Program-made: the position numbers and the translations under genes | The notes under the pieces: generated by a model | Database searches by the model: none | The model's input: the letters and a program-made list of their open reading frames with translations, nothing else | Told to the model about the DNA's origin: nothing | Shown: in pieces, positions 3,715 through 29,990 of the stretch | Layout of the letters: every line of letters begins with the position of its first letter | Position numbering within the stretch: the first letter of the stretch is position 1 | NCBI RefSeq assembly: GCF_032197885.1 | Contig: NZ_CP134161.1 | Coordinates: 1-29,990 of the forward strand | From: Levilactobacillus namurensis | Lineage (GTDB): Bacteria; Bacillota; Bacilli; Lactobacillales; Lactobacillaceae | DNA: 29,990 nt | Reading direction: 5' to 3'

Positions 3715-3849
3715 TATAATGTAGACAGAAAAGGAAGCCTTGCGCTAACAAGACTTCCTACGCAAGCCGCTTCAAAGGCGGTGGCGAAGTTAATAAGACA
3801 GCATTAAGCTACCCTGTAACCTACCAAAGTTACGCAGGGCGGCTTTTTT
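3715..3849 (+). ncRNA. Probable antisense RNA (antitoxin) of a type I toxin locus
   Basis: An extended -10 promoter (TGC then TATAAT, 3715-3720) is followed by about 120 bases without an ORF that end in a strong terminator hairpin (CCCTG/CAGGG arms at 3812-3816 and 3835-3839, inner AAC/GTT pairing, outer AAGC/GCTT pairing, T run 3844-3849). The RNA would fold into two more hairpins: CTTGCG with CGCAAG, and CCGC with GCGG. It is transcribed toward the toxin gene and overlaps the 3' end of its mRNA at the shared hairpin. Short motifs (CCTTGCG; GGCGGTGGC) recur near the 5' ends of both transcripts, at 3738-3786 and about 4000-4026, as in convergent type I systems. Start near 3727 is estimated. 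Confidence 0.65.
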
Positions 3850-10999: not shown

Positions 11000-11050
11000 A
11001 CACCTCCATGTATTAGCATGTTACCCAGATTATTATTCATGGATGTAAGC
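11000..11050 (-). promoter_or_regulatory. Remaining upstream region of opuA
   Basis: Only about 50 bases separate opuAA from the IS3 end. Minus strand shows GGAGGTG before the start and an AT-rich TAATAAT near 11030-11036 as the only -10 candidate. The native -35 and any regulator site may have been replaced by the IS end. Confidence 0.35.
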
Positions 11051-12061
11051 TGATTCCTGAGACAACTTTTAAGAGAGGGTATAATGAATAAATCGTCTCT
11101 CAAAAGGAAGGAATTTTTACATGCCAACTCGTTACGACAAAGAATTCAAACAAAACATTATCAACCTATATAAGCAAGGCGAATCAGCTGCCCAACTGGC
11201 CAGAGAATATGGCATTGGCTATTCAACAGTTCATAAGTGGATCCAGGGCCAGGCCAAGACTCAATCCGGTAAATCGCCAGACGAAATCAAAGCGATGGAA
11301 AAGCGACTGGCTTCGCTGTCTGAGGAGAACGAAATCCTAAAAAAAGCCCTGGGCTTCCTTGCGCAGAAGTAACCAATATTTTTGATCACATTCACCAAGA
11401 AAGCCATCACCAGGTAACTAAGATGTGCCGAATCCTCGGTGTTTCCAGAGCTCAGTATTATCGTTATCGATCCCCACTTCAAAACGCCGGGCCGAAGATG
11501 CGGACTTAAAACAACGGGTTCTGCGGATCTTTGCGGAATTTAAGCAGCGATACGGCGTTATGAAGATCCACCATGAATTGAATCTGGAACTTCAACCACT
11601 GCAGCGTCGGTGCAGCCCAAGACGGATTTCCCGACTCATGAAGGAACTGGATATCCACTCCGTTACCGTCAATAAATGGAAAGCGGCTTCGGCTTCCAAA
11701 ACCAAGGTTGAACAGCGTCCCAACTTGCTTAAGCAGGATTTCTCGACCACTGGTTTAAATCAAAAATGGACCGCTGATATGACCTATATTCAAACGAAGC
11801 GTAATGGCTGGTGTTACTTATCAACCATCATGGACCTGCACTCACGACGGATTATCGGCTATTCGTTCTCAAAAAAGATGGCTACTGATTTAGTCTTAAA
11901 GGCCCTTGAAAGCGCGGTTAAAAATCGAACCATTACTGGGGACCTGATTATCCATACGGATTTAGGATCACAGTATACCAGCGATGATTACAATCAACGT
12001 TTAACTGAGCTACATATCCGCCACTCATACAGCCGTAAGGGTTGTCCGTATGATAATGGCA
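11051..12061 (+). mobile_element. IS3-family element, 3'-truncated
   Basis: Starts near 11051 (TGATTCCTGAGACAACTTTT), carries TATAAT at 11080-11085 and orfA plus most of orfB, and is cut at about 12061 by an IS30-family element. Its right end is not found on the other side of that IS30, so it was lost. Exact left end is estimated from the TG start and distance to orfA. Confidence 0.75.
11121..11372 (+). CDS. IS3-family transposase, OrfA
   Basis: 83 residues: helix-turn-helix of the InsE/IS3 type (YDKEFKQNIINLYKQGESAA, then QLAREYGIGYSTVHKWI) and a leucine-zipper tail (EIKAMEKRLASLSEENEILKKA). AAGGAAGGA lies before ATG. Near the end, the slippery heptamer A-AAA-AAG at 11339-11346 would let ribosomes shift -1 into orfB, the usual way these elements make the fused transposase. 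Confidence 0.88.
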   Translation: MPTRYDKEFKQNIINLYKQGESAAQLAREYGIGYSTVHKWIQGQAKTQSGKSPDEIKAMEKRLASLSEENEILKKALGFLAQK

Positions 12062-17231: not shown

Positions 17232-17398
17232 CTAGTAGTACAAACCACTGTTATCGTTGTCGGCCGACTTTTCTTCTTCGGGGTGTTTGGCCACATATTC
17301 TCTAGCCGCTTGTTTATTCCACCAAACGCCAAATAGGTTTTGCATGGTGCCGTACAGGTAGTTTTCCACGTTCTTGATGTGCTTCTCATTGCTTCTTA
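17232..17398 (-). pseudogene. C-terminal end of a RepA_N-type replication initiator (part 2, after IS5)
   Basis: Minus-strand frame RSNEKHIKNVENYLYGTMQN then LFGVWWNKQAAREYV... to a TAG at 17234-17232. The NENYLYGTM..LF..WWN wording is typical of the C-terminal domain of RepA_N plasmid initiators in lactobacilli. It continues exactly, across the IS5 copy at 17399-18253, from the part at 18254-18432 (…RRYFNAL|RSNEKH…) once one TTA duplication is removed. Confidence 0.7.
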
Positions 17399-18253
17399 GA
17401 AGCTGTCTAAAATCTCTTAAGTAATAGTGCTAAAAACGCTAAAACGACCATTTGCAGACTGGTGGTTAATTGACGCTCACAATTTTTCCAAAGTCGCCGA
17501 CAATTCTCTAGCCAACTAAAAGATCGTTCGACTACCCAACGTTGGGGCATAACTTCGAATCGATGCAACTCATTGCGCTTCGCAACCTGCACGGTTGCGT
17601 TTAAATTACTGGCTACATCGAGCTGAAAATTAACGCCTGAATAACCACCATCAACTAAGACATTTTGAACCTGGCGTAAATGCATGGCATGTAAAGCGAT
17701 CATTGCACTGGCCCCGTCTCGATCAGAGACGTTCGCTCGCGTCATGTGAATGGCCTGCGGAAAGCCATTGATATCAACTGCCAGATGGCGCTTAATCCCC
17801 GAGATTTTCTTACCAGCGTCGTAACCTTTGTTTTCAGCAGTAGCGGTGTTTTTGACGCTCAGAGCGTCAAAAATAATAAAGGAAGTTAAAGCTGAACGTC
17901 CTTGGTAAGTTCGCCGAGCAATGACAATTTTTTTAAAACTTGTTCCAATAAAGAATCAGCCGTAGGCTCAGCTTTAGTTGACCAAATTTTGTAATAGTTG
18001 TAAACTGACCGCCATTCTGGGAAATCACCGGGGACTTGACGCCATTGGCAACCGGTTTTCAAGACATATAGGACCGCACAGAAGACCTCGTAGAGGTCAT
18101 ATTTTCGAGGCTTAGTTCGCTTACGAAAATTTTCTAAAGCTGGTCGAATTAATTCAAATTGTTGCCGAGTAATATTGCTGGGATAATTTTTCATAGCTTA
18201 AACTCGCTTTTTACATAGAAGTATATCAAAAATCATAGATCTTGGACAGCTTC
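17399..18253 (-). mobile_element. IS5-family element, copy A, with TTA target duplication
   Basis: Terminal repeats GAAGCTGTC at both ends; flanked by TTA at 17396-17398 and 18254-18256. Length 855. It splits the RepA_N gene. It differs from the inverted copy at 20240-21094 by at least one base, G versus A in the coding strand, giving Val versus Ile near the transposase end. Confidence 0.92.
17407..18194 (-). CDS. IS5-family transposase (copy A), two ORFs joined by programmed frameshift
   Basis: ORF1 (18194-17886) has 102 residues with an N-terminal domain typical of IS5/DUF4096 proteins (ITRQQFELIRPALENFRKRT, LKTGCQWRQVPGDFPEWRSV). Within it a run of seven A (minus strand, 17934-17928) allows a -1 shift into the second frame, which continues ARRTYQGRSALTSF..FDALSVKN.. 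and ends at 17407. The DDE residues are in the second frame: FDAL region (Asp), VDGGYSG (Asp), RWVVERSFSWLE (Glu). Neither frame alone is an active transposase. Confidence 0.88.
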
Positions 18254-18432
18254 TTAGGGCGTTAAAGTAACGTCTCAAGGCTTTAGTCATTAAAAATTTA
18301 AGTTCTTCGTCGTCCAGTGGGATTATGACGCCAATATCTTTATGATCCTTCTCAACTCGGTACTTAGCATTTAAGATAATACCAACGAAGCGACGTATCT
18401 GTTGCGGGGTACGGCACCAAAAACTAAGCAGT
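18254..18432 (-). pseudogene. RepA_N-type replication initiator remnant (part 1, before IS5)
   Basis: Minus-strand frame FWCRTPQQIRRFVGIILNAK followed by YRVEKDHKDIGVIIPLDDEE and LKFLMTKALRRYFNAL up to the IS5 end. Upstream, the likely continuation HDEYCLVF lies in another frame: one T seems missing in the T run near 18424-18428, and a stop precedes it. Nothing further of the ~350-residue N-terminal part remains before the IS150-group element at 18522. The initiator that binds the origin and recruits helicase is therefore inactive. Confidence 0.65.
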
Positions 18433-18547
18433 ATTCATCATGTTACAGCACCCAAGTAAAAGCTACGAAGATAAAAACATTCATCCTCAAAATATGTAAC
18501 CTAGAAAAAAGGCCTCTGAAGTGAACCCCATAAGTTGGAGTGAATTT

Positions 18548-19369
18548 CTACGCCACTAACTGGCTGGTATGTTCCCGGTATTTTACCGGGGACATACCAG
18601 CCAGTTTTGCTTTTATCCGACGATGATTGTAATAGTCAACGTAGTTAGTAATGCTGGATTCTAGCTCTTTGTAACTCCTATATTGGTGATTATGAACCGT
18701 GCCAACTTTAAGAATGTGAAAAATACTTTCTGCTACTGCGTTATCTAGGCATGTGGCCTTACGGCTCATGCTTTGGAAAACATGGGCTTGTTGAAGAATG
18801 TTCACGTATCGAAAGTTTTGATATTGAAAGCCTTGGTCTGAGTGAATTGTCATTCGATATGGTAAATCTGGCCGTTTTGCTAGTAGTCGCTTAAGTGGGC
18901 ATGTTACGAAGTCGACCGTCGGTTTACGATCAATGGCCCATTCAATAATTTCTCCGTTGTAGAGGTCAATATAAGCCGTAAAGTACGCACGTTCGTTGAT
19001 AGTTTGCTCACCCCAACGAACCTCAGTCACATCGGTAACGACCTTTTGAAATGGTCGATCCGTCTTGAAACGACGTTGTAAACGATTATGGGCAATTTTA
19101 CCAACGGTTCCTTTATAAGAATTGTATTTCTTGGTGCGCCGATTAAACGCCTGACATAGTAGGTTATTTTCACGCATGATACGAAGTACGGCTTTATGAT
19201 TTGCCTGGATTCCTTTATTTTTAAGAGCCAGAGTGACTGTTCGATATCCATAGTCTGGATTATTTAAACGAATACTTCTAATCTCATCAACTAACGTTGA
19301 TGAGTTCGTTTGATATTTCCGATGACGAGCATCATGATAACTGCTACTCGACATTCTTACTGCCTTCAA
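18548..19369 (-). CDS. IS150-group transposase, OrfB
   Basis: 273 residues shown from ATG; in the fused product the frame is entered earlier, near 19440. Residues include the HTH_21 region (LVDEIRSIRLNNPDYGYRTV) and the rve integrase core: VVTDVTEVRWG (Asp), IHSDQGFQYQN (Asp), CLDNAVAESIFHILK (Glu). The frame is intact. Confidence 0.9.
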   Translation of the reverse strand: MKAVRMSSSSYHDARHRKYQTNSSTLVDEIRSIRLNNPDYGYRTVTLALKNKGIQANHKAVLRIMRENNLLCQAFNRRTKKYNSYKGTVGKIAHNRLQRRFKTDRPFQKVVTDVTEVRWGEQTINERAYFTAYIDLYNGEIIEWAIDRKPTVDFVTCPLKRLLAKRPDLPYRMTIHSDQGFQYQNFRYVNILQQAHVFQSMSRKATCLDNAVAESIFHILKVGTVHNHQYRSYKELESSITNYVDYYNHRRIKAKLAGMSPVKYREHTSQLVA

Positions 19370-19413
19370 AACCGCAACTAATTTAACATTGAATTTGCGC
19401 CTTAGCTCAGTAA

Positions 19414-19896
19414 TTAGCTGGGCTTTCTCTTGGTTTGAGATTTTTTCTGTGCCAAGGCTTCGAGTTTTTCCAAGTAGGCTACCCGTATCCGCAGGAGTTC
19501 ATTTTCTTCCTGAAGTTGCTTCAAGGTTTTAGATTGCTTAGCTTTATCTGTCATTTTTAAAGACCGTCCTTTGAATGGCTTAAGACGTCCCTCAATCAGC
19601 TTTCGTTCCCAATCCCAAATCATTACCGGATGTTTTAATTTGAAATGAGCTGCGGTTACTGGATATGAGGCACGATGTTCTTGTCGCCACTTGATAACCT
19701 TGATTTTAAAGGAATAGTCGTAAAATGTCTTCCTTGAATGGTTCTCCAATCCTTGAATTCCAAAAAGTTTAAAGTGAGTGAGCCATTGATGGATAGTCGC
19801 ACTACCTTTAATACCATACTTTCTCATGAGTAATCGGGACGAAGTTCCCTGAAGATACTCGCTTAATACTTGTTGCTTTATTTTTGCTGAGAACAT
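19414..19896 (-). CDS. IS150-group transposase, OrfA
   Basis: 160 residues with two HTH units (SEYLQGTSSRLLMRKYGIKG; VIKWRQEHRASYPVTAAHFK) and a coiled-coil end (KTLKQLQEENELLRIRVAYLE). Near its end AAAAAA in CAG-AAA-AAA-TCT permits a -1 shift into ISNQEKAQLITELRRKF, which leads into OrfB without a stop, giving the OrfAB transposase. Confidence 0.88.
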   Translation of the reverse strand: MFSAKIKQQVLSEYLQGTSSRLLMRKYGIKGSATIHQWLTHFKLFGIQGLENHSRKTFYDYSFKIKVIKWRQEHRASYPVTAAHFKLKHPVMIWDWERKLIEGRLKPFKGRSLKMTDKAKQSKTLKQLQEENELLRIRVAYLEKLEALAQKKSQTKRKPS

Positions 19897-19941
19897 AGTA
19901 AAACCCCCTGAGTTTGGATTTACTCCAACTCAGGGGGTTCA

Positions 19942-20239
19942 CTTTACTCCAGTGTTAAACCGGGAGCCTTTTTTAGTATACCAATTTCTACTTCACATAA
20001 GGCGGCTTATCCCAAGTAACCCACATTCACCGCGGTACTTCCACATTCCGTTATTTTTTGATTGTGAACTTGTCCAAAAAAGAAGTGGTATAGGTCTCAG
20101 ATTGGCTTTAATTGGGGAAAATGAGTTTGTGAAATTCACTGAAATTACGTCTAGGCCATTCCCTTGAAGTTAACTGTCTCATTCTTTGTATTAACCAAAA
20201 ACTTACCGACACTCCCCTGATACTTCACTGATACTTTAA
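19942..20239. other. Gene-free spacer between IS150 and IS5 copy B
   Basis: No convincing ORF. Just before the IS5 end, CTGATACTT occurs twice 11 bases apart (about 20218-20236), and a related GGAATACTT follows on the other side of the IS (21098-21107). These could be residues of plasmid-specific repeats. Confidence 0.4.
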
Positions 20240-21094
20240 GAAGCTGTCCAAGATCTATGATTTTTGATATACTTCTATGTAAAAAGCGAGTTTAAGCTAT
20301 GAAAAATTATCCCAGCAATATTACTCGGCAACAATTTGAATTAATTCGACCAGCTTTAGAAAATTTTCGTAAGCGAACTAAGCCTCGAAAATATGACCTC
20401 TACGAGGTCTTCTGTGCGGTCCTATATGTCTTGAAAACCGGTTGCCAATGGCGTCAAGTCCCCGGTGATTTCCCAGAATGGCGGTCAGTTTACAACTATT
20501 ACAAAATTTGGTCAACTAAAGCTGAGCCTACGGCTGATTCTTTATTGGAACAAGTTTTAAAAAAATTGTCATTGCTCGGCGAACTTACCAAGGACGTTCA
20601 GCTTTAACTTCCTTTATTATTTTTGACGCTCTGAGCGTCAAAAACACCGCTACTGCTGAAAACAAAGGTTACGACGCTGGTAAGAAAATCTCGGGGATTA
20701 AGCGCCATCTGGCAGTTGATATCAATGGCTTTCCGCAGGCCATTCACATGACGCGAGCGAACGTCTCTGATCGAGACGGGGCCAGTGCAATGATCGCTTT
20801 ACATGCCATGCATTTACGCCAGGTTCAAAATGTCTTAGTTGATGGTGGTTATTCAGGCGTTAATTTTCAGCTCGATGTAGCCAGTAATTTAAACGCAACC
20901 GTGCAGGTTGCGAAGCGCAATGAGTTGCATCGATTCGAAGTTATGCCCCAACGTTGGGTAGTCGAACGATCTTTTAGTTGGCTAGAGAATTGTCGGCGAC
21001 TTTGGAAAAATTGTGAGCGTCAATTAACCACCAGTCTGCAAATGGTCATTTTAGCGTTTTTAGCACTATTACTTAAGAGATTTTAGACAGCTTC
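20240..21094 (+). mobile_element. IS5-family element, copy B, with TAA target duplication
   Basis: Same 855-base element as copy A but inverted; flanked by TAA at 20237-20239 and 21095-21097. It separates a small minus-strand reading frame (21293 leftward) from whatever followed it. Confidence 0.92.
20299..21086 (+). CDS. IS5-family transposase (copy B), two ORFs joined by programmed frameshift
   Basis: ORF1 20299-20607 and second frame ending at 21086; slippery run of seven A at 20559-20565. Identical to copy A except Ile for Val in LQMVILAFLALL. Both copies look intact and may be active. Confidence 0.88.
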
Positions 21095-21293
21095 TAAAGG
21101 AATACTTGTAATTTACCCGAGTGTATCGAATACTACTAATTCTCCCCCGATACCCTTGCTTATGCAAAACTCTTTTTACTTGATCTCTCTGCTGATTGGT
21201 AATTCTTGCAGAACTCCGATAGATTGTCTTCTTAACGATCACATCTGGATTCAATGGAACAATGTAATCCTTACATTCCAACAATTCCACCAA
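21095..21293 (-). pseudogene. Unrecognised small gene, 3' end cut by IS5 copy B
   Basis: An ORF from ATG 21293 (AAAGAAAG upstream) encodes MVELLECKDYIVPLNPDVIV, then KKTIYRSSARITNQQRDQVK and a basic stretch RGRISSIRYTRVNYKYSF before entering the IS. Basic and without a known motif; no family recognised. It has a ~200-base leader with a -10 box TATAAT at 21510-21505 (minus). Its place, next to the partition operon and divergent from it, is where RepA_N plasmids usually carry the initiator gene, but the sequence does not resemble RepA. Confidence 0.4.
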
Positions 21294-21765
21294 CTTTCTT
21301 TTTTCTTTGGAATTTGACTTGACGGGTTACGGTTTTCCATTCAGTTTAGAGGGAGTGACGTTTTGAGCGCAGAATTGTTCCCTGGAATCAGCTATTTGGA
21401 ATAACTGAACCAGAGTGCAATTCTACGCTAAGGTTTCCCCCTAGTTCGTCGGTCGTTAACGCCCGTCGCTTGTCTGTACAATTGCGGTATTGCTACCACC
21501 ACTCATTATAAACCTACGTTTTCGGTTTAACCTACTAAAAAACGCCCTAGTAGGCGTTGGCAATACGTATTTATGTTTGTTCGATCACCAACTAATCAGT
21601 GGCACCAAGCCGAAGCTTCGTTTTACCACCCGCGCCGTTAATGGTCGCGCTCACCATTCACCACCCAGCCGTACAGATAGCCTTGTTGTGGTATAGCCAG
21701 ACTTATTGAAGTCGCCCTGGCAAACGTGTCCCCTTGGATTTAGACCCCAGCTTGTCCCCTAGGGC
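21294..21765. other. Gene-poor region between the small minus-strand gene and the partition operon
   Basis: Holds a hairpin AACGCC (21541-21546)/GGCGTT (21553-21558) followed on the minus strand by a T run, thus a minus-strand terminator, and a -10 box for the minus strand at 21505-21510. No ORF convinces on either strand. Composition is less AT-rich than the surroundings, with several short palindromes (for example CGAAGCTTCG at 21612-21621). Possible origin or regulatory RNA region. Confidence 0.4.
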
Positions 21766-21857
21766 TTTAAAAATCGCACCGGCCATGATATAATAGTCAT
21801 TAAATAAGTTGACTTTTATGTGGCGCTCACCGATTCCCGTCGGTGGGTGTTTTTTTA
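21766..21857 (+). ncRNA. Possible small RNA or attenuated leader upstream of the partition operon
   Basis: Promoter TTTAAA (21766-21771), 17-base spacer, TATAAT (21789-21794). Transcription from about 21801 would reach a hairpin after only ~30 bases: CACCGA (21828-21833)/TCGGTG (21840-21845), followed by GGTGTTTTTTT. The product is a ~55-base RNA without an ORF. It may be a copy-control RNA or the leader of parA. Confidence 0.4.
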
Positions 21858-21920: not shown

Positions 21921-22125
21921 TATCCTTGTATCCTTGTATCCTTGTATATTCATATCCTTGTATCTAAGTATCCTTGTATCCTTGTATCTAAGTATATTAG
22001 GATACTTGCAGTCAATCTTAATTTAACGGCTTTTGAGAAGAAATGTATCCTTGTATCCTTGTATCCAAGTATCTTTGTATGTTATCATCCTTGTATCCAA
22101 GTATCCTTGTATATTAGGATACTTA
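21921..22125 (+). repeat. Two arrays of unspaced 8-bp repeats: probable centromere (parS) and parA operator
   Basis: Array 1 (21921-22008) is eleven octads in perfect register: TATCCTTG three times, then TATATTCA, TATCCTTG, TATCTAAG, TATCCTTG twice, TATCTAAG, TATATTAG, GATACTTG. Array 2 (22046-22125) is ten octads: TATCCTTG twice, TATCCAAG, TATCTTTG, TATGTTAT, CATCCTTG, TATCCAAG, TATCCTTG, TATATTAG, GATACTTA. Both end in the same TATATTAG-GATACTT pair. They lie immediately upstream of parA and its ribosome binding site, so ribbon-helix-helix ParB-like binding there would both repress parA and form the segregation complex, as the heptads of pSM19035 omega protein do, but with an 8-base step. 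Confidence 0.85.
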
Positions 22126-22141
22126 ATTGGAGGTCAGTATA

Positions 22142-22942
22142 ATGGGTGAAGTAATTACTTTTGGAAATTTTAAAGGTGGCACCGGTAAAACAACAAATGC
22201 CACGCTTGCATGCCTGGCACTAGCTCGTACTGGTAAAAAAACGCTATTAATTGATTTCGATCCTCAAGCAAACGCTACAGATATTTACTTTAAAACCGCG
22301 GCTAATTTAGGCCACGATGATATTAAATTTAATCAAACCTTGCTTGCATCAATCCAAGAAGAGGACTTATCAAGATCGTTGGTTACTTTGGATAAAAACA
22401 TTGACTTTATTCCATCAAGCGCAGATTTTTCATTGTACCCACGGATTATGGAAAAAAAGTTTAAAAATAATTATAAAGATAGAGTTACATATTTTAGCAA
22501 GCTACTTGCTTCACTAAAAGAAAAATATGATTTTGTGGTATTTGATTTGCCACCGACTATTTCCTTAATTTCTGATAGCGCCTTATACGCTTCAGATTGG
22601 GTTCTGATTATCCTTCAAACTCAAGAGCACAGTCTTCAGGGTGCCGAATCGTTTCTAAAATATATACAGGAACAGGTAATCGATGAATACGAAGCACCTA
22701 GTTTGAATTTACTCGGTATACTTCCTGTGCTATTAAAGAATGGGGCGCCTGTTGATCACAGCACATTAGAAGTAGCAGAAGAAGAATTTGGGAAAGAAAA
22801 CATGTTAAAAACCCTAATTCGTAATATGGAAAGAATCAAAAGATATTCAATCAGAGGTGTATTTCTAAAAGATCAGTTCGATAAAAAAATAATTAGATTA
22901 TACGATTCTGTGGCACAAGAAATCATTGAAAGGGCGGACTAG
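22142..22942 (+). CDS. parA: ParA-family plasmid partition ATPase
   Basis: 266 residues from ATG 22142, preceded by TTGGAGG at spacing 8; a TTG at 22127 inside that signal is rejected. Deviant Walker A KGGTGKTT (residues 11-18) with signature Lys, Walker A' LLIDFDPQANAT, and Walker B VVFDLPPTISL. No N-terminal HTH, so this is a type Ib ParA. It forms a dynamic ATP-dependent gradient on the nucleoid that separates plasmid copies, working with the small DNA-binding partner encoded directly downstream. Operon expression is probably controlled by binding to the octad arrays. Confidence 0.93.
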   Translation: MGEVITFGNFKGGTGKTTNATLACLALARTGKKTLLIDFDPQANATDIYFKTAANLGHDDIKFNQTLLASIQEEDLSRSLVTLDKNIDFIPSSADFSLYPRIMEKKFKNNYKDRVTYFSKLLASLKEKYDFVVFDLPPTISLISDSALYASDWVLIILQTQEHSLQGAESFLKYIQEQVIDEYEAPSLNLLGILPVLLKNGAPVDHSTLEVAEEEFGKENMLKTLIRNMERIKRYSIRGVFLKDQFDKKIIRLYDSVAQEIIERAD

Positions 22943-22943
22943 C

Positions 22944-23294
22944 ATGGTGGAACTTTTACACAATCCTAAATCAAATAAAAGCAAAATAATTCCTAGAAAA
23001 TCGGCGCCCCAGCCCCAAAAAGAAATTTCCATATCTTCTCTAAACGAATCAAACAAAACGAAGTCTAAACAAATAGATGGTGTTACTTTTGATACTACAC
23101 TCAGAATTGACAATCATCTAAAAAACTTTATGAAAGCTATGGTAATTTTAGGGTATAGCTCAACTCAACAAAACGGATTAGCCCAATTACAAAAAACTTT
23201 TTTTGAATCGTTAACTGAGTCTGAACAAAATACGCTTACGACTCAAATACAGACTTTGGAAACCGGCGATGCTAACAAAGTAAAAAGTAAATAA
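22944..23294 (+). CDS. Small ParB-like centromere-binding protein (predicted ribbon-helix-helix)
   Basis: 116 residues from ATG 22944, one base after the parA stop, with GAAAGGGCGG upstream; the frame also opens at 22926 inside parA. The N-terminal ~45 residues are polar and probably flexible (KSNKSKIIPRKSAPQPQKEI), as needed to stimulate the ParA ATPase. The centre, FDTTLRIDNHLKNFMKAMVI then LGYSSTQQN, matches the strand-helix-helix pattern of small replication/partition proteins in lactobacilli (DUF5388-like). Predicted to bind the octads at 21921-22125. Named by position and fold prediction, not by strong similarity. Confidence 0.75.
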   Translation: MVELLHNPKSNKSKIIPRKSAPQPQKEISISSLNESNKTKSKQIDGVTFDTTLRIDNHLKNFMKAMVILGYSSTQQNGLAQLQKTFFESLTESEQNTLTTQIQTLETGDANKVKSK

Positions 23295-25943: not shown

Positions 25944-27920
25944 ATGGAAAAACGACATTACAAGATGTATAAAGATGGCAAAAAATGGGTCTTTGCAGCA
26001 GTTACTGTGATTGCTTTAGGGGTTGGGTTAAGTGAAAGTACATATGTTGTAAAAGCAGATAGTACTGTGACTATTGCATCAACTGATGATTCAGTAAATA
26101 CTGGCTCTGCCAGCAAGAATCCTACTGTACCTGTCACATCAACTGATGATTCAGTAAATACTGGCTCTGCCAGCAAGAATCCTACTGTACCTGTCATATC
26201 AACTGATGATTCAGTAAATACTGGCTCTGCCAGCAAGAATCCTACTGTACCTGTCATATCAACTGATGATTCAGTAAATACTGGCTCTGCCAGCAAGAAT
26301 CCTACTGTACCTGTCACATCAGCTAATGATTCAGTAAATACTGGCTCTGCCAGCAAGAATCCTACTGTACCTGTCACATCAACTGATGATTCAGTAAATA
26401 CTGGTGCCGCCAGCAAGAAAACTAATTTACCTGCTACCTCAACTGATAATTCAAAAAAAATTAAATCTTCACTTGTTATCAATCATTTAGAAGAGAAAGG
26501 CAATCTTGAAAAATTGGCCTTATCATCTGATAGTGTCCAACCAGCTACTTCCATTAGTGATGATACTTATTTAAAAAATTTAGGAATTGATATTAACGAC
26601 CTAAATACTAACAGTGTTTTAAAATTAGCTTCTTTGTTCCATATTTTTGCAAATCAAGCTAGTTTATCAGCGGATACTAATGGTAATTTAGCTGTTAAAA
26701 TTTTAAATGGCTCTAACGATTTTGGTACACGTGGTGATTCATACAATTTAACTAGCGGTGATATTTATTACATTCAACAACTGGCCAAAGAGCTTCAAAA
26801 TAACGCTTTTAGAAATAAAACATTTAATCATGTAGTATTAGGTAAAGATGTTAGTGTATCAATTGAAAATAACAAGGTCTTGATCAATGGTATCACTATG
26901 GATAATTTAAAACCTGAAGATGTTTATCAAGATACCAATGGGCAGACCTATATTGATTTTAGTGATGTATTTCAGCAACTAGTAAAGGCATCCACCAGTT
27001 ATGCTAGTACTCCTCAGTCAAAAGGTGTTATTTCAAATTATGATGACATGAATAATCGCTATGTTGATGTTTCGAAAGTAGCAACTGGAACACAAATTAT
27101 TTATGTAAATGTTCCATTCAAATATTTGAGTGCTTCTCAGCCGATTACAATCAAGGGAATATCTCATTTAGAAAATGGCCCCACTATCGTCATTAACGTT
27201 ACTGATATTCCAAATGGTGATCAAAATATTTCTACACAAGTTCAATTATATTATGATGATGGAACGAATTCTCTACCCAGCAGTGAAGAGCATTCAGAGC
27301 CTAACCATGTATTATGGAACTTAGGTACCGGTGAACAAGTCTTCAATTTCAGCAGTGGTCGGTTTATGGGAAGCGTTTTAGCACCTAATGCGACTATTAA
27401 TGCTGGAGTTAACATTGATGGGAATATTGTTGCTAATATCGTTAATATAACCGGCGGTGAATCGCACAGATGGGATATTCATCCACAACCGACACAGCCA
27501 ACTCAACCGACGCAGCCAACTCAACCGACACAGCCAACTCAACCGACACAGCCAACTCAACCGACGCAGCCAACTCAACCGACACAGCCAACTCAACCGA
27601 CACAGCCAACTCAACCGACACAGCCAACTCAACCGACACAGCCAACTCAACCGACACAGCCAACTCAACCGACGCAGCCAACTCAACCGACGCAGCCAAC
27701 TCAACCGACGCAGCCAACTCAATTGATTAAAACTAATGTTAATGAGAAAAAAACAGTTTCATTGGTAAATGATAAAGAAAAAAATCCTTCTAAAAATAGA
27801 GAAGCTTTACCACAAACTAGTGAAAAATCAGAAAGCTCTGTTTCAGCTCTAGGTGTCTTATTACTGGCTTTAGGAAGTTTAACCAGTTGGCTGACTTTCA
27901 GAAAAAAGTGGAAAGATTAA
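25944..27920 (+). CDS. Sortase-anchored surface adhesin with choice-of-anchor A domain
   Basis: 658 residues. KxYKxGKxW signal peptide (KMYKDGKKW, residues 7-15; cleavage likely after VKA38). Residues ~45-165: six 20-residue repeats (DDSVNTGSASKNPTVPV unit). Residues ~205-515: a domain ending FMGSVLAPNATINAGVNIDG, NIVANIVNITGGESHRWD, the 'choice-of-anchor A' family of extracellular proteins. Residues 516-593: 26 Pro-Thr-Gln triplets as a wall-spanning stalk. Then LPQTSE (622-627), a hydrophobic segment and the charged tail FRKKWKD: cell-wall anchoring by sortase; LPQTxE is the form favoured in the Lactiplantibacillus plantarum group. AAGGGA precedes ATG. The Ser/Thr-rich parts are possible glycosylation sites, and a truncated glycosyltransferase gene follows. 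Role in adhesion is inferred. Confidence 0.9.
   Translation: MEKRHYKMYKDGKKWVFAAVTVIALGVGLSESTYVVKADSTVTIASTDDSVNTGSASKNPTVPVTSTDDSVNTGSASKNPTVPVISTDDSVNTGSASKNPTVPVISTDDSVNTGSASKNPTVPVTSANDSVNTGSASKNPTVPVTSTDDSVNTGAASKKTNLPATSTDNSKKIKSSLVINHLEEKGNLEKLALSSDSVQPATSISDDTYLKNLGIDINDLNTNSVLKLASLFHIFANQASLSADTNGNLAVKILNGSNDFGTRGDSYNLTSGDIYYIQQLAKELQNNAFRNKTFNHVVLGKDVSVSIENNKVLINGITMDNLKPEDVYQDTNGQTYIDFSDVFQQLVKASTSYASTPQSKGVISNYDDMNNRYVDVSKVATGTQIIYVNVPFKYLSASQPITIKGISHLENGPTIVINVTDIPNGDQNISTQVQLYYDDGTNSLPSSEEHSEPNHVLWNLGTGEQVFNFSSGRFMGSVLAPNATINAGVNIDGNIVANIVNITGGESHRWDIHPQPTQPTQPTQPTQPTQPTQPTQPTQPTQPTQPTQPTQPTQPTQPTQPTQPTQPTQPTQPTQPTQPTQPTQPTQPTQPTQLIKTNVNEKKTVSLVNDKEKNPSKNREALPQTSEKSESSVSALGVLLLALGSLTSWLTFRKKWKD
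26077..26436 (+). repeat. Six tandem 60-bp repeats in the adhesin gene
   Basis: Copies begin at 26077 and every 60 bases after. The first four are nearly identical (one C/T change near the unit end), the fifth has GCTAAT for ACTGAT, the sixth diverges at its end, and a seventh half-copy fades out by ~26460. Each encodes 20 residues. Near-identity at the DNA level suggests recent expansion. Confidence 0.92.
27489..27722 (+). repeat. Thirteen tandem 18-bp repeats encoding Pro-Thr-Gln
   Basis: Unit CCGACACAGCCAACTCAA, with ACA or ACG as the only variation, 234 bases in total. Each unit encodes (PTQ)2 using different codons for its two halves, so the DNA period is 18 while the protein period is 3. 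Length can vary without frameshift. Confidence 0.95.
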
Positions 27921-28431: not shown

Positions 28432-29783
28432 GGTAGCGTCAAGAATCTTGTGTAAATGAAATGCCTTCGTACATATAATATGTATCTAACTTAAATAAAT
28501 GATGCTTCCAAGGTGTCCTGGAGTCCTTTGAACCCTCGGTGGATCCGCTTCAGAGACTTCTCGTTATAAACATTAAACTGAGAAACCAGGAAGCGATCCA
28601 GTGAATCTTCCGTTGGAAATTGTTCTTTGTGGTGGGTGGTGCGCTTGAGATGCTTATTAAAGTTCTCAATCAGGTTAGTGGAGTATAGTGATTGCCGGAT
28701 AGCTGGTGGAAAGTCCATGAAAGTGAGTAAATTCGGCATTTTAAGCAGATCTTTGATTAATTTGGGATAGGTCTGATGCCAGTTGTTGGCGAACTCATTC
28801 AGTTTCAGTTCGGCTGCTTCGCGGTTGGCGGCCCGATGAACTTGTTTAAAGTCACTGATCACGGCCTTGCGGTCTTTTACGCGAACTTTGTTCATCAGAT
28901 TCCGCCCAACATGAACCAGGCAACGTTGTCGTTTGGCTTTAGGGAAATGCCGATTCAAGCCTTCATCCAAACCAACTAACCCATCGGCCACAAACAACAG
29001 CACATCTTTAACGCCCTGCTTGATCAAGGTTCCCAGCAGTTCAGTCCAGATTCCAGTCGATTCCGTTGGCGCCACTTGGTAGTTCAGCACTTCTTTCGTA
29101 CCATCTGGACGAATGCCAATCGCAATATGAACGGCTTCTTTTTGAACGGTATCCCGCTTTAACGGCAAGTAAGTGGCATCTAAGAAGATGGCCGCATATT
29201 GTGAAGCCAGTCGCCGTTGCTGGAAAGCTTGAACCTGTTCATTGACGGCTTTAGTCATGTTGGAAACCGTGGCTTTGGAGTAGTGAGCACCGTACATTTT
29301 CTCAATGAGTTCGGCAATTTCAGCAGTGGTAATTCCCTTGGTATACAACTGAATGACCGTTGTTTCTAAATTATCACTGTGCCGACCGTAGGCTGGCAAG
29401 GTATGATTTTCAAACCGGCCATTGCGATCTCGAGGAATGGTTAAGCTAAGTTGGCCGTACTTCGTATCAAACGAGCGCTCATAACTGCCGTTGCGGTTAT
29501 TACCAGTGTTAATCCCAGCGTATGAGTAGCGTTCGTAACCCAAAAACTCTGCCAATTCGGTTTGAAGCAGCTGGTTAATCGCAATTTCGAGGTGGTGACG
29601 AAAAACTTCGTCCAAATCTTGCTTTTGGGCTAGTGCAGCGATAATTTCTGTGGTAAGTTCATTCATGGGGAATGCCTCCTGTGATGTTTTCTGTGGTTAC
29701 TAAATATCATAAGGGAAGGCATTCCCTATTTCTATACAATTCAGAAATCTTTTATGCATTTACACAAGATATTTTACGCTCTC
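28432..29783 (-). mobile_element. IS256-family element, complete
   Basis: Terminal repeats GGTAGCGTCAAGAATCTTGT (28432) and, inverted at 29783, GAGAGCGTAAAATATCTTGT. About 1352 bases. Flanks are ISLpl1 sequence on the left and an inverted IS256 fragment on the right; no 8-9 base target duplication, so the junctions arose by rearrangement. Confidence 0.9.
28491..29666 (-). CDS. IS256-family (mutator-type) transposase
   Basis: 391 residues, full length for the family. AGGAGG 9 bases before ATG 29666. N-terminal region LLQTELAEFLGYERYSYAGI followed by NNRNGSYERSFDTKYGQL is the family hallmark. Catalytic residues: AIFLDATYLPLK (Asp), LLFVADGLVGLDE (Asp), STNLIENFNKHLKR (Glu) with C/H motif KRQRCLVHVGRNL between. 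Intact and probably active; it may act on the fragment whose one end remains at 100-126. Confidence 0.93.
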   Translation of the reverse strand: MNELTTEIIAALAQKQDLDEVFRHHLEIAINQLLQTELAEFLGYERYSYAGINTGNNRNGSYERSFDTKYGQLSLTIPRDRNGRFENHTLPAYGRHSDNLETTVIQLYTKGITTAEIAELIEKMYGAHYSKATVSNMTKAVNEQVQAFQQRRLASQYAAIFLDATYLPLKRDTVQKEAVHIAIGIRPDGTKEVLNYQVAPTESTGIWTELLGTLIKQGVKDVLLFVADGLVGLDEGLNRHFPKAKRQRCLVHVGRNLMNKVRVKDRKAVISDFKQVHRAANREAAELKLNEFANNWHQTYPKLIKDLLKMPNLLTFMDFPPAIRQSLYSTNLIENFNKHLKRTTHHKEQFPTEDSLDRFLVSQFNVYNEKSLKRIHRGFKGLQDTLEASFI

Positions 29784-29990
29784 CAAATTAATCAAAGATC
29801 TGCTTAAAATGCCGAATTTACTCACTTTCATGGACTTTCCACCAGCTATCCGGCAATCACTATACTCCACTAACCTGATTGAGAACTTTAATAAGCATCT
29901 CAAGCGCACCACCCACCACAAAGAACAATTTCCAACGGAAGATTCACTGGATCGCTTCCTGGTTTCTCAGTTTAATGTTTATAACGAGAA
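29784..29990 (+). pseudogene. IS256-family transposase fragment, continues at base 1
   Basis: From about 29788 the plus strand encodes LIKDLLKMPNLLTFMDFPPA and onward (AIRQSLYSTNLIENFNKHLK...) to NVYNE, with the Lys codon split between 29989-29990 and base 1, then SLKRIHRGFKGLQDTLEASF and the stop at 65-67. It matches the last ~90 residues of the intact transposase. The 5' three quarters are missing. Confidence 0.93.

Follow-up and report, generated by a model that had tools for sequence, protein, structure and literature searches.

The 29,990-bp contig NZ_CP134161.1 of Levilactobacillus namurensis, analysed in full and called the window in what follows, carries two arrays of uninterrupted 8-bp repeats (octads) ahead of parA and a small gene of the DUF5388 family (PF17363). 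We read the two arrays as the putative parS centromere of a pAD1 repB-repC-like ParABS cassette of type Ib, with a probability of about 0.88, the binding itself being inferred. The octad step is already known from enterococcal plasmids, and the window centromere joins a known kind. A previous inspection of the bare letters (the sequence-only reading) had also proposed an octad centromere with a ParB-like partner; a centromere serving the adjacent ParA and a small putative DNA-binding protein is retained here, on the joint variation of array, parA and partner gene and with no RepA_N or Rep_3 match on the contig, while the 8-bp step is given up as a novelty.

Array 1 (21921..22008, + strand) holds 11 octads and array 2 (22046..22125, + strand) holds 10, each with the core GTATCC every 8 bp and with its final site inverted. 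The unit TATCCTTG is exact in nine of the 21 octads; TATCTAAG, TATCCAAG and TATATTAG occur twice each, TATCTTTG, TATGTTAT, CATCCTTG and TATATTCA once each, and two closing GATACTT units complete the set. The core is degenerate (two mismatches) at 5 of the 21 register positions. All nine copies of TATCCTTG in the whole window lie within the arrays (100 dinucleotide shuffles: mean 1.27, maximum 6), and identity at lag 8 over 21921-22125 is 0.59, whereas 1000 dinucleotide shuffles, over lags 5 to 15, peaked at 0.43; a chance repeat is thereby ruled out. Identity at lag 7 is 0.16. The coordinates, the counts of 11 and 10 and the exact 8-bp step proposed from the letters alone are thus confirmed, as is the closing GATACTT of both arrays, which can now be described as part of an inverted core (GGATAC on the + strand; − strand, 22000..22005 and 22117..22122, taking the core as GTATCC). 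These inverted cores stay in register, sitting exactly 10 (array 1) and 9 (array 2) steps past the first core of their own array. The register called strict is so inside each array and not across both, which are offset by 125 bp (5 mod 8) and share no register. Array 2 is followed after 3 bp by GGAGG (22129-22133), which precedes parA.

Three further identities for the array region were rejected. Two open frames that enter the array (68 and 99 aa) consist mostly of repeats; no Rfam model matched at its gathering score, the matches being sub-threshold only; and no sigma-70 promoter was found within the arrays, the region having five promoter-like sites against 6.8 in shuffles.

Five further copies of the window array were compared. 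One (L024) has array 2 shorter by exactly one octad; the others (L010, L066, L096 and L100) are unchanged in length and carry 1 to 5 substitutions, mostly converting one unit type to another. A script search for the window-array pattern gave no match in L011, L097, L088 or L067; in the last of these, whose DUF5388 protein is 48% identical to that of the window, GTATCY-type units are retained in two blocks.

The parA gene (22142..22942, + strand) encodes a 266-aa Walker ATPase with PF13614 from residue 3, KGGTGKT near the N-terminus and no N-terminal helix-turn-helix, as in type Ib. Among solved structures delta' of pSM19035 is nearest (2oze, E 5.7e-29); of the NCBIfam models PrgP scores best, its 186 bits falling short of the cut-off of 400. 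The partner gene (22944..23294, + strand) begins 1 bp past the parA stop, which is the downstream partner position of type Ib, and the repeats, a putative centromere, likewise stand upstream of the operon. The 116-aa partner scores 91.7 bits against the Pfam model for DUF5388 (cut-off 26.1) and is a candidate centromere-binding protein of the RepC kind. A DUF5388 profile built from 24 proteins matched Reg576 (6gyg), which we take to be a ribbon-helix-helix (RHH) regulator, with E 2e-4, and a profile of 48 proteins did so with E 0.0012. No omega chain was among the PDB matches of these profiles. The sequence-only reading had seen no close relation of the partner protein to omega; this fits the small protein, but the ATPase is nearest to delta' of the omega system.

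Under the centromere reading, DUF5388 dimers would bind one octad each (core GTATCC) and would sit side by side on each array, the final dimer reversed. The coated arrays would then stimulate the ParA ATPase, by which plasmid copies would be moved apart over the nucleoid. The same binding probably represses parA and the DUF5388 gene too, since array 2 stops 3 bp before the ribosome-binding sequence of parA. For lactic acid bacteria and enterococci, a domain so far unnamed would thereby gain a likely role, that of binding the centromere.

The closest comparison is pTEF1 of Enterococcus faecalis (L101, L102), which we take to be pAD1-like. As in the window, a DUF5388 gene (28 bits, cut-off 26.1) stands behind a ParA-type gene, ahead of which two blocks of 8-bp repeats run without interruption; the octads are unlike (TAGTARRR in pTEF1, GTATCCTT in the window), and repA is intact in pTEF1 but broken in the window. 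The pTEF1 record carries an iad gene. In work on pAD1, RepC is reportedly the protein that binds these iterons, as an active partition system. With pTEF1 as the comparison sequence, the window matches the repB-repC part of pAD1 in its RepC-family (DUF5388) partner and in the two 8-bp repeat blocks upstream; in place of an intact repA beside the array it has C-terminal repA pieces only. The window locus is therefore filed with the partition part of pAD1 and not with its complete replicon. In the limited collection of literature searched, no paper was found on DUF5388 or on TAGTARRR, nor any that links Reg576 with ribbon-helix-helix.

Other plasmids share parts of this plan. An 8-bp array also precedes the ParA gene of pTG9790 (Enterococcus hirae), whose partner has a sub-cut-off DUF5388 match. 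The parH site of TP228 has a period of roughly 8 bp. In the ParF-ParG-parH system of that plasmid a repeated site is coated by a small RHH protein that acts together with a ParA-type ATPase (PMC7308502); the window is similar in its small protein, repeated site and ParA-type ATPase, with coating presumed. The delta-omega system of pSM19035 is related through its ATPase and, like the window, has short repeats placed end to end, some direct and some inverted (PMC9499535); its heptads measure 7 bp against 8 bp in the window, which has no omega homologue among its PDB profile matches. PrgP-PrgO of pCF10 also combines a ParA gene, a small partner gene and short repeats, which lie on both sides; its step, however, is 9 bp, and no Pfam model matched PrgO at E 1. 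Finally, pTE15 of Limosilactobacillus reuteri is described as having a truncated RepA C-terminus, RepB, RepC, pAD1-like repeats and no essential Rep (PMC9743546); the likeness to the window is by this description and not by sequence.

We surveyed the DUF5388 family for the step of the array. The domain was present in 39 of 395 genomes of an order sample and in 82 of 397 genomes of a family sample, the two samples overlapping. Loci entered the survey as top matches of a search, up to 30 from each, or by hand-picking, and do not form a random sample. The count covers 50 DUF5388 proteins, all distinct and with parA close by, for which up to 500 bp upstream of parA were scanned, counting period 14 as 7; excluded were loci with no parA within 1500 bp, those with gaps >450 bp, L068 (54 bp upstream) and duplicates of an identical DUF5388 protein. 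Two 7-bp loci, C2 (L008) and L094, were kept out of the step count, a different parA and a 76-77-aa gene preceding their DUF5388 gene. The best period upstream of parA was 8 in 37 of the 50 and 7 in 13. Arrays at z of at least 4 were found in 43 (32 with period 8 and 11 with period 7), two of these loci having an extra small gene between parA and the DUF5388 gene; among the parA coding stretches used as a control none of 50 reached z 4 (highest 2.1). When the 48 direct parA-DUF5388 pairs were clustered at 70% identity into 33 clusters, 28 had z of at least 4, with step 8 in 21, step 7 in 7 and no mixed cluster, although only 9 of the 28 contain more than one protein. Step-7 label changes numbered 3 on the DUF5388 tree and 4 on the ParA tree, versus 8.5 with shuffled labels on either, but several of the deep forks are weak and some of the branches are long, which leaves the number of step switches uncertain. 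As an observation apart, two loci (L079 and L080, from genomes G451 and G488) have several DUF5388-like genes in a row behind a single parA.

The view of the sequence-only reading that the 8-base step departs from known systems is not supported, given the octads of pTEF1 and the 21 of 28 DUF5388 clusters that step by 8; its choice of omega as the sole comparison should be widened to include pAD1-type repB-repC, in view of the TAGTARRR octads that stand before the ParA and DUF5388 genes of pTEF1. Its figure for the twist, 274 degrees per step at 10.5 bp per turn, is arithmetically correct, and the differently wound nucleoprotein filament that it drew from the 8-base step would be a further deduction.

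The most useful new point is a natural experiment in which a shared core occurs with steps of 8 or 7. One strand of L022 (step 8) carries 22 copies of the core A[AC]CA[CT]T; between successive copies, each of the 18 spacings that do not exceed 40 bp measures exactly 8. In L027 (step 8) the spacings are 8 (seven times) and 24. The same core in L072 (step 7) is spaced by 7 (three times), 14 (three times) and 35. Five copies stand on that strand in each of L019 and L080 (both step 7), with spacings of 14 and 34 in L019, where two reverse-strand spacings equal 7, and of 7, 14, 33 and 35 in L080. The predicted recognition strands are PVNIRVDNHIRN in both L022 and L027, PVNVRVDNHIRN in L019, PINIRVDNHIRN in L080 and PANVRVDNHVRN in L072, and the DUF5388 proteins of the step-8 pair are 41-51% identical to those of the step-7 trio. 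Because a common core and a similar predicted recognition strand go with either step, this suggests that step length is not determined by base reading; it is a comparison and not a proof, and it leans most on L022 and L072. Such natural protein-array pairs, with one core and steps of 7 and 8, make the role of RHH filament winding in partition directly testable.

A non-coding element of about 570 bp (21289..21857, + strand) lies directly upstream of the octads. It matches 432 PLSDB records from lactic acid bacteria, over at least 80% of its length in 353; best identity is 90-99% in 360 records, 80-90% in 3 and 60-80% in 69. None of the matching records is listed under Limosilactobacillus. The window parA, in comparison, has matches in 79 PLSDB records. 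A 96% identical copy of the element lies on C2 of the same genome; there the parA that follows is a different one, accompanied by a 76-aa gene and AT-rich repeats of 7 bp, and a DUF5388 gene comes after this set. All eight hand-picked element records have a parA-type pair 197-428 bp past the element, with array step 8 in L104 and L110 and 7 in L105, L106, L109 and L111. Diverged copies of the element in L112 and L113 also stand before a parA-type pair, and in L094 a piece of a window-type DUF5388 gene persists behind a C2-type cassette. Beside one and the same element, then, array motif and step vary together with parA and partner type, which supports the centromere reading. At C2 about 18200-20310 (L077) a swap of par cassettes is apparent, the DUF5388 gene behind seeming orphaned. 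A small BRCT-type gene is divergent from the element in several plasmids (L077 3909-4187; L011 9485-9763), with no counterpart at that place among the listed open reading frames (ORFs) of the window.

We consider the element a candidate replication origin beside interchangeable par cassettes, one that would need no plasmid initiator; no DnaA box was found in it within one mismatch of four TTATNCACA forms. Its presence in 432 plasmid records beside varied cassettes points to origins that may function without a known plasmid initiator. The window has remains of a RepA_N-type repA, namely part of its C-terminal region (18249..18431, − strand) and the end of that region (17313..17420, − strand), with transposase genes between them; similar remnants occur in pWCFS103 and shorter ones in pLBN-7. 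The search for initiators over whole plasmids covered the families RepA_N and Rep_3. Neither matched on the window contig; in this genome C4 alone has RepA_N and C5 alone has Rep_3. Both were likewise absent from six other plasmids that share either the element or the par block (pWCFS103, pLBN-7, pKB290-5, L11988-9, SRCM103297 unnamed4 and pKB290-2). L099 has both families and L067 has RepA_N. RepA may be supplied in trans from C4, or the cognate initiator may be of an unknown family; counter to the absence of an initiator, PLSDB assigns pWCFS103, pKB290-5, L11988-9 and others to the replicon cluster rep_cluster_731.

The octads might instead be replication iterons, bound by an initiator that starts or controls replication, as the sequence-only reading had itself foreseen. 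Short direct repeats close to an origin are often iterons, the conserved element adjoins the octads, and the authors of pTE15 name AT-rich direct repeats iterons, pAD1-like repeats among them, and take the region as the origin (PMC9743546). However, the contig holds no RepA_N or Rep_3 match and only broken C-terminal pieces of repA, and no Rep domain was found in the 22 ORFs scanned with Pfam among the 65 listed. Nor are RepB and RepC needed for the replication of pTE15 (PMC9743546). The array varies with the par genes while the adjoining element is 90-99% identical in 360 of 432 records; array, parA and partner gene appear from these sequences to move as a unit, and a centromere is therefore favoured, the iteron explanation being improbable. 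Slighter still is the chance that the arrays are solely an operator through which parA and the DUF5388 gene are autoregulated, with the centromere elsewhere. The end of array 2, 3 bp ahead of the parA ribosome-binding sequence, would suit an operator, but 21 sites over 205 bp in two blocks probably exceed its needs, period-7 and period-8 arrays recur upstream of parA throughout the DUF5388 family, and Tandem Repeats Finder and the period scan found no other array of this kind around the operon.

Several observations weigh against the centromere reading as we have framed it. In the survey, 7 of the 50 upstream regions fall below z 4, and L084, whose upstream array steps by 8, carries beyond its DUF5388 gene a 7-bp stretch with z 7.1. 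Among the eight fetched cassettes beside the element, two (L107 and L108) have no clear step, and a third diverged copy of the element, in L099, has no annotated parA across the whole record. The RHH fold of the DUF5388 protein is a prediction from sequence. In favour of the reading, a pTE15 clone without a complete repC was retained by 5% of cells at ~144 generations, compared with 100% at 216 generations for the whole plasmid; against it, retention of a larger clone of 6.8 kb also fell, to ~30% (PMC9743546); repC is thus not the sole thing absent from the small clone.

A wider picture joins these results, and we offer it tentatively, at somewhat less than even odds: a conserved 570-bp origin needing no plasmid-encoded initiator would be coupled to a swappable partition cassette, and the DUF5388 centromere would have switched its step between 8 and 7, with the core and a large part of the recognition strand left unchanged. 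Contacts between dimers, rather than the reading of bases, would accordingly set the twist of the filament.

The window is one of five contigs (C3, in its entirety) of a 2.78-Mb genome. Its ends match neighbouring parts of a single transposase copy in pLBN-7 (29783-29990 to 11021-11228, and 1-127 to 11229-11355), and a circular plasmid fits these matches. Elsewhere in the window, RatA, a type I antitoxin RNA, has an Rfam match at 3717-3805 (58.2 bits, gathering score 49). Two near-identical transposase gene pairs (17407-18194 and 20299-21086; IS5-like by eye) lie in opposite orientation and enclose another transposase pair (IS3-like by eye). A surface protein encoded at 25944-27920 has a KxYKxGKxW signal, a putative ice-binding-like adhesive domain, an anchor match slightly under its cut-off, and tandem repeats of 60 bp and 18 bp.
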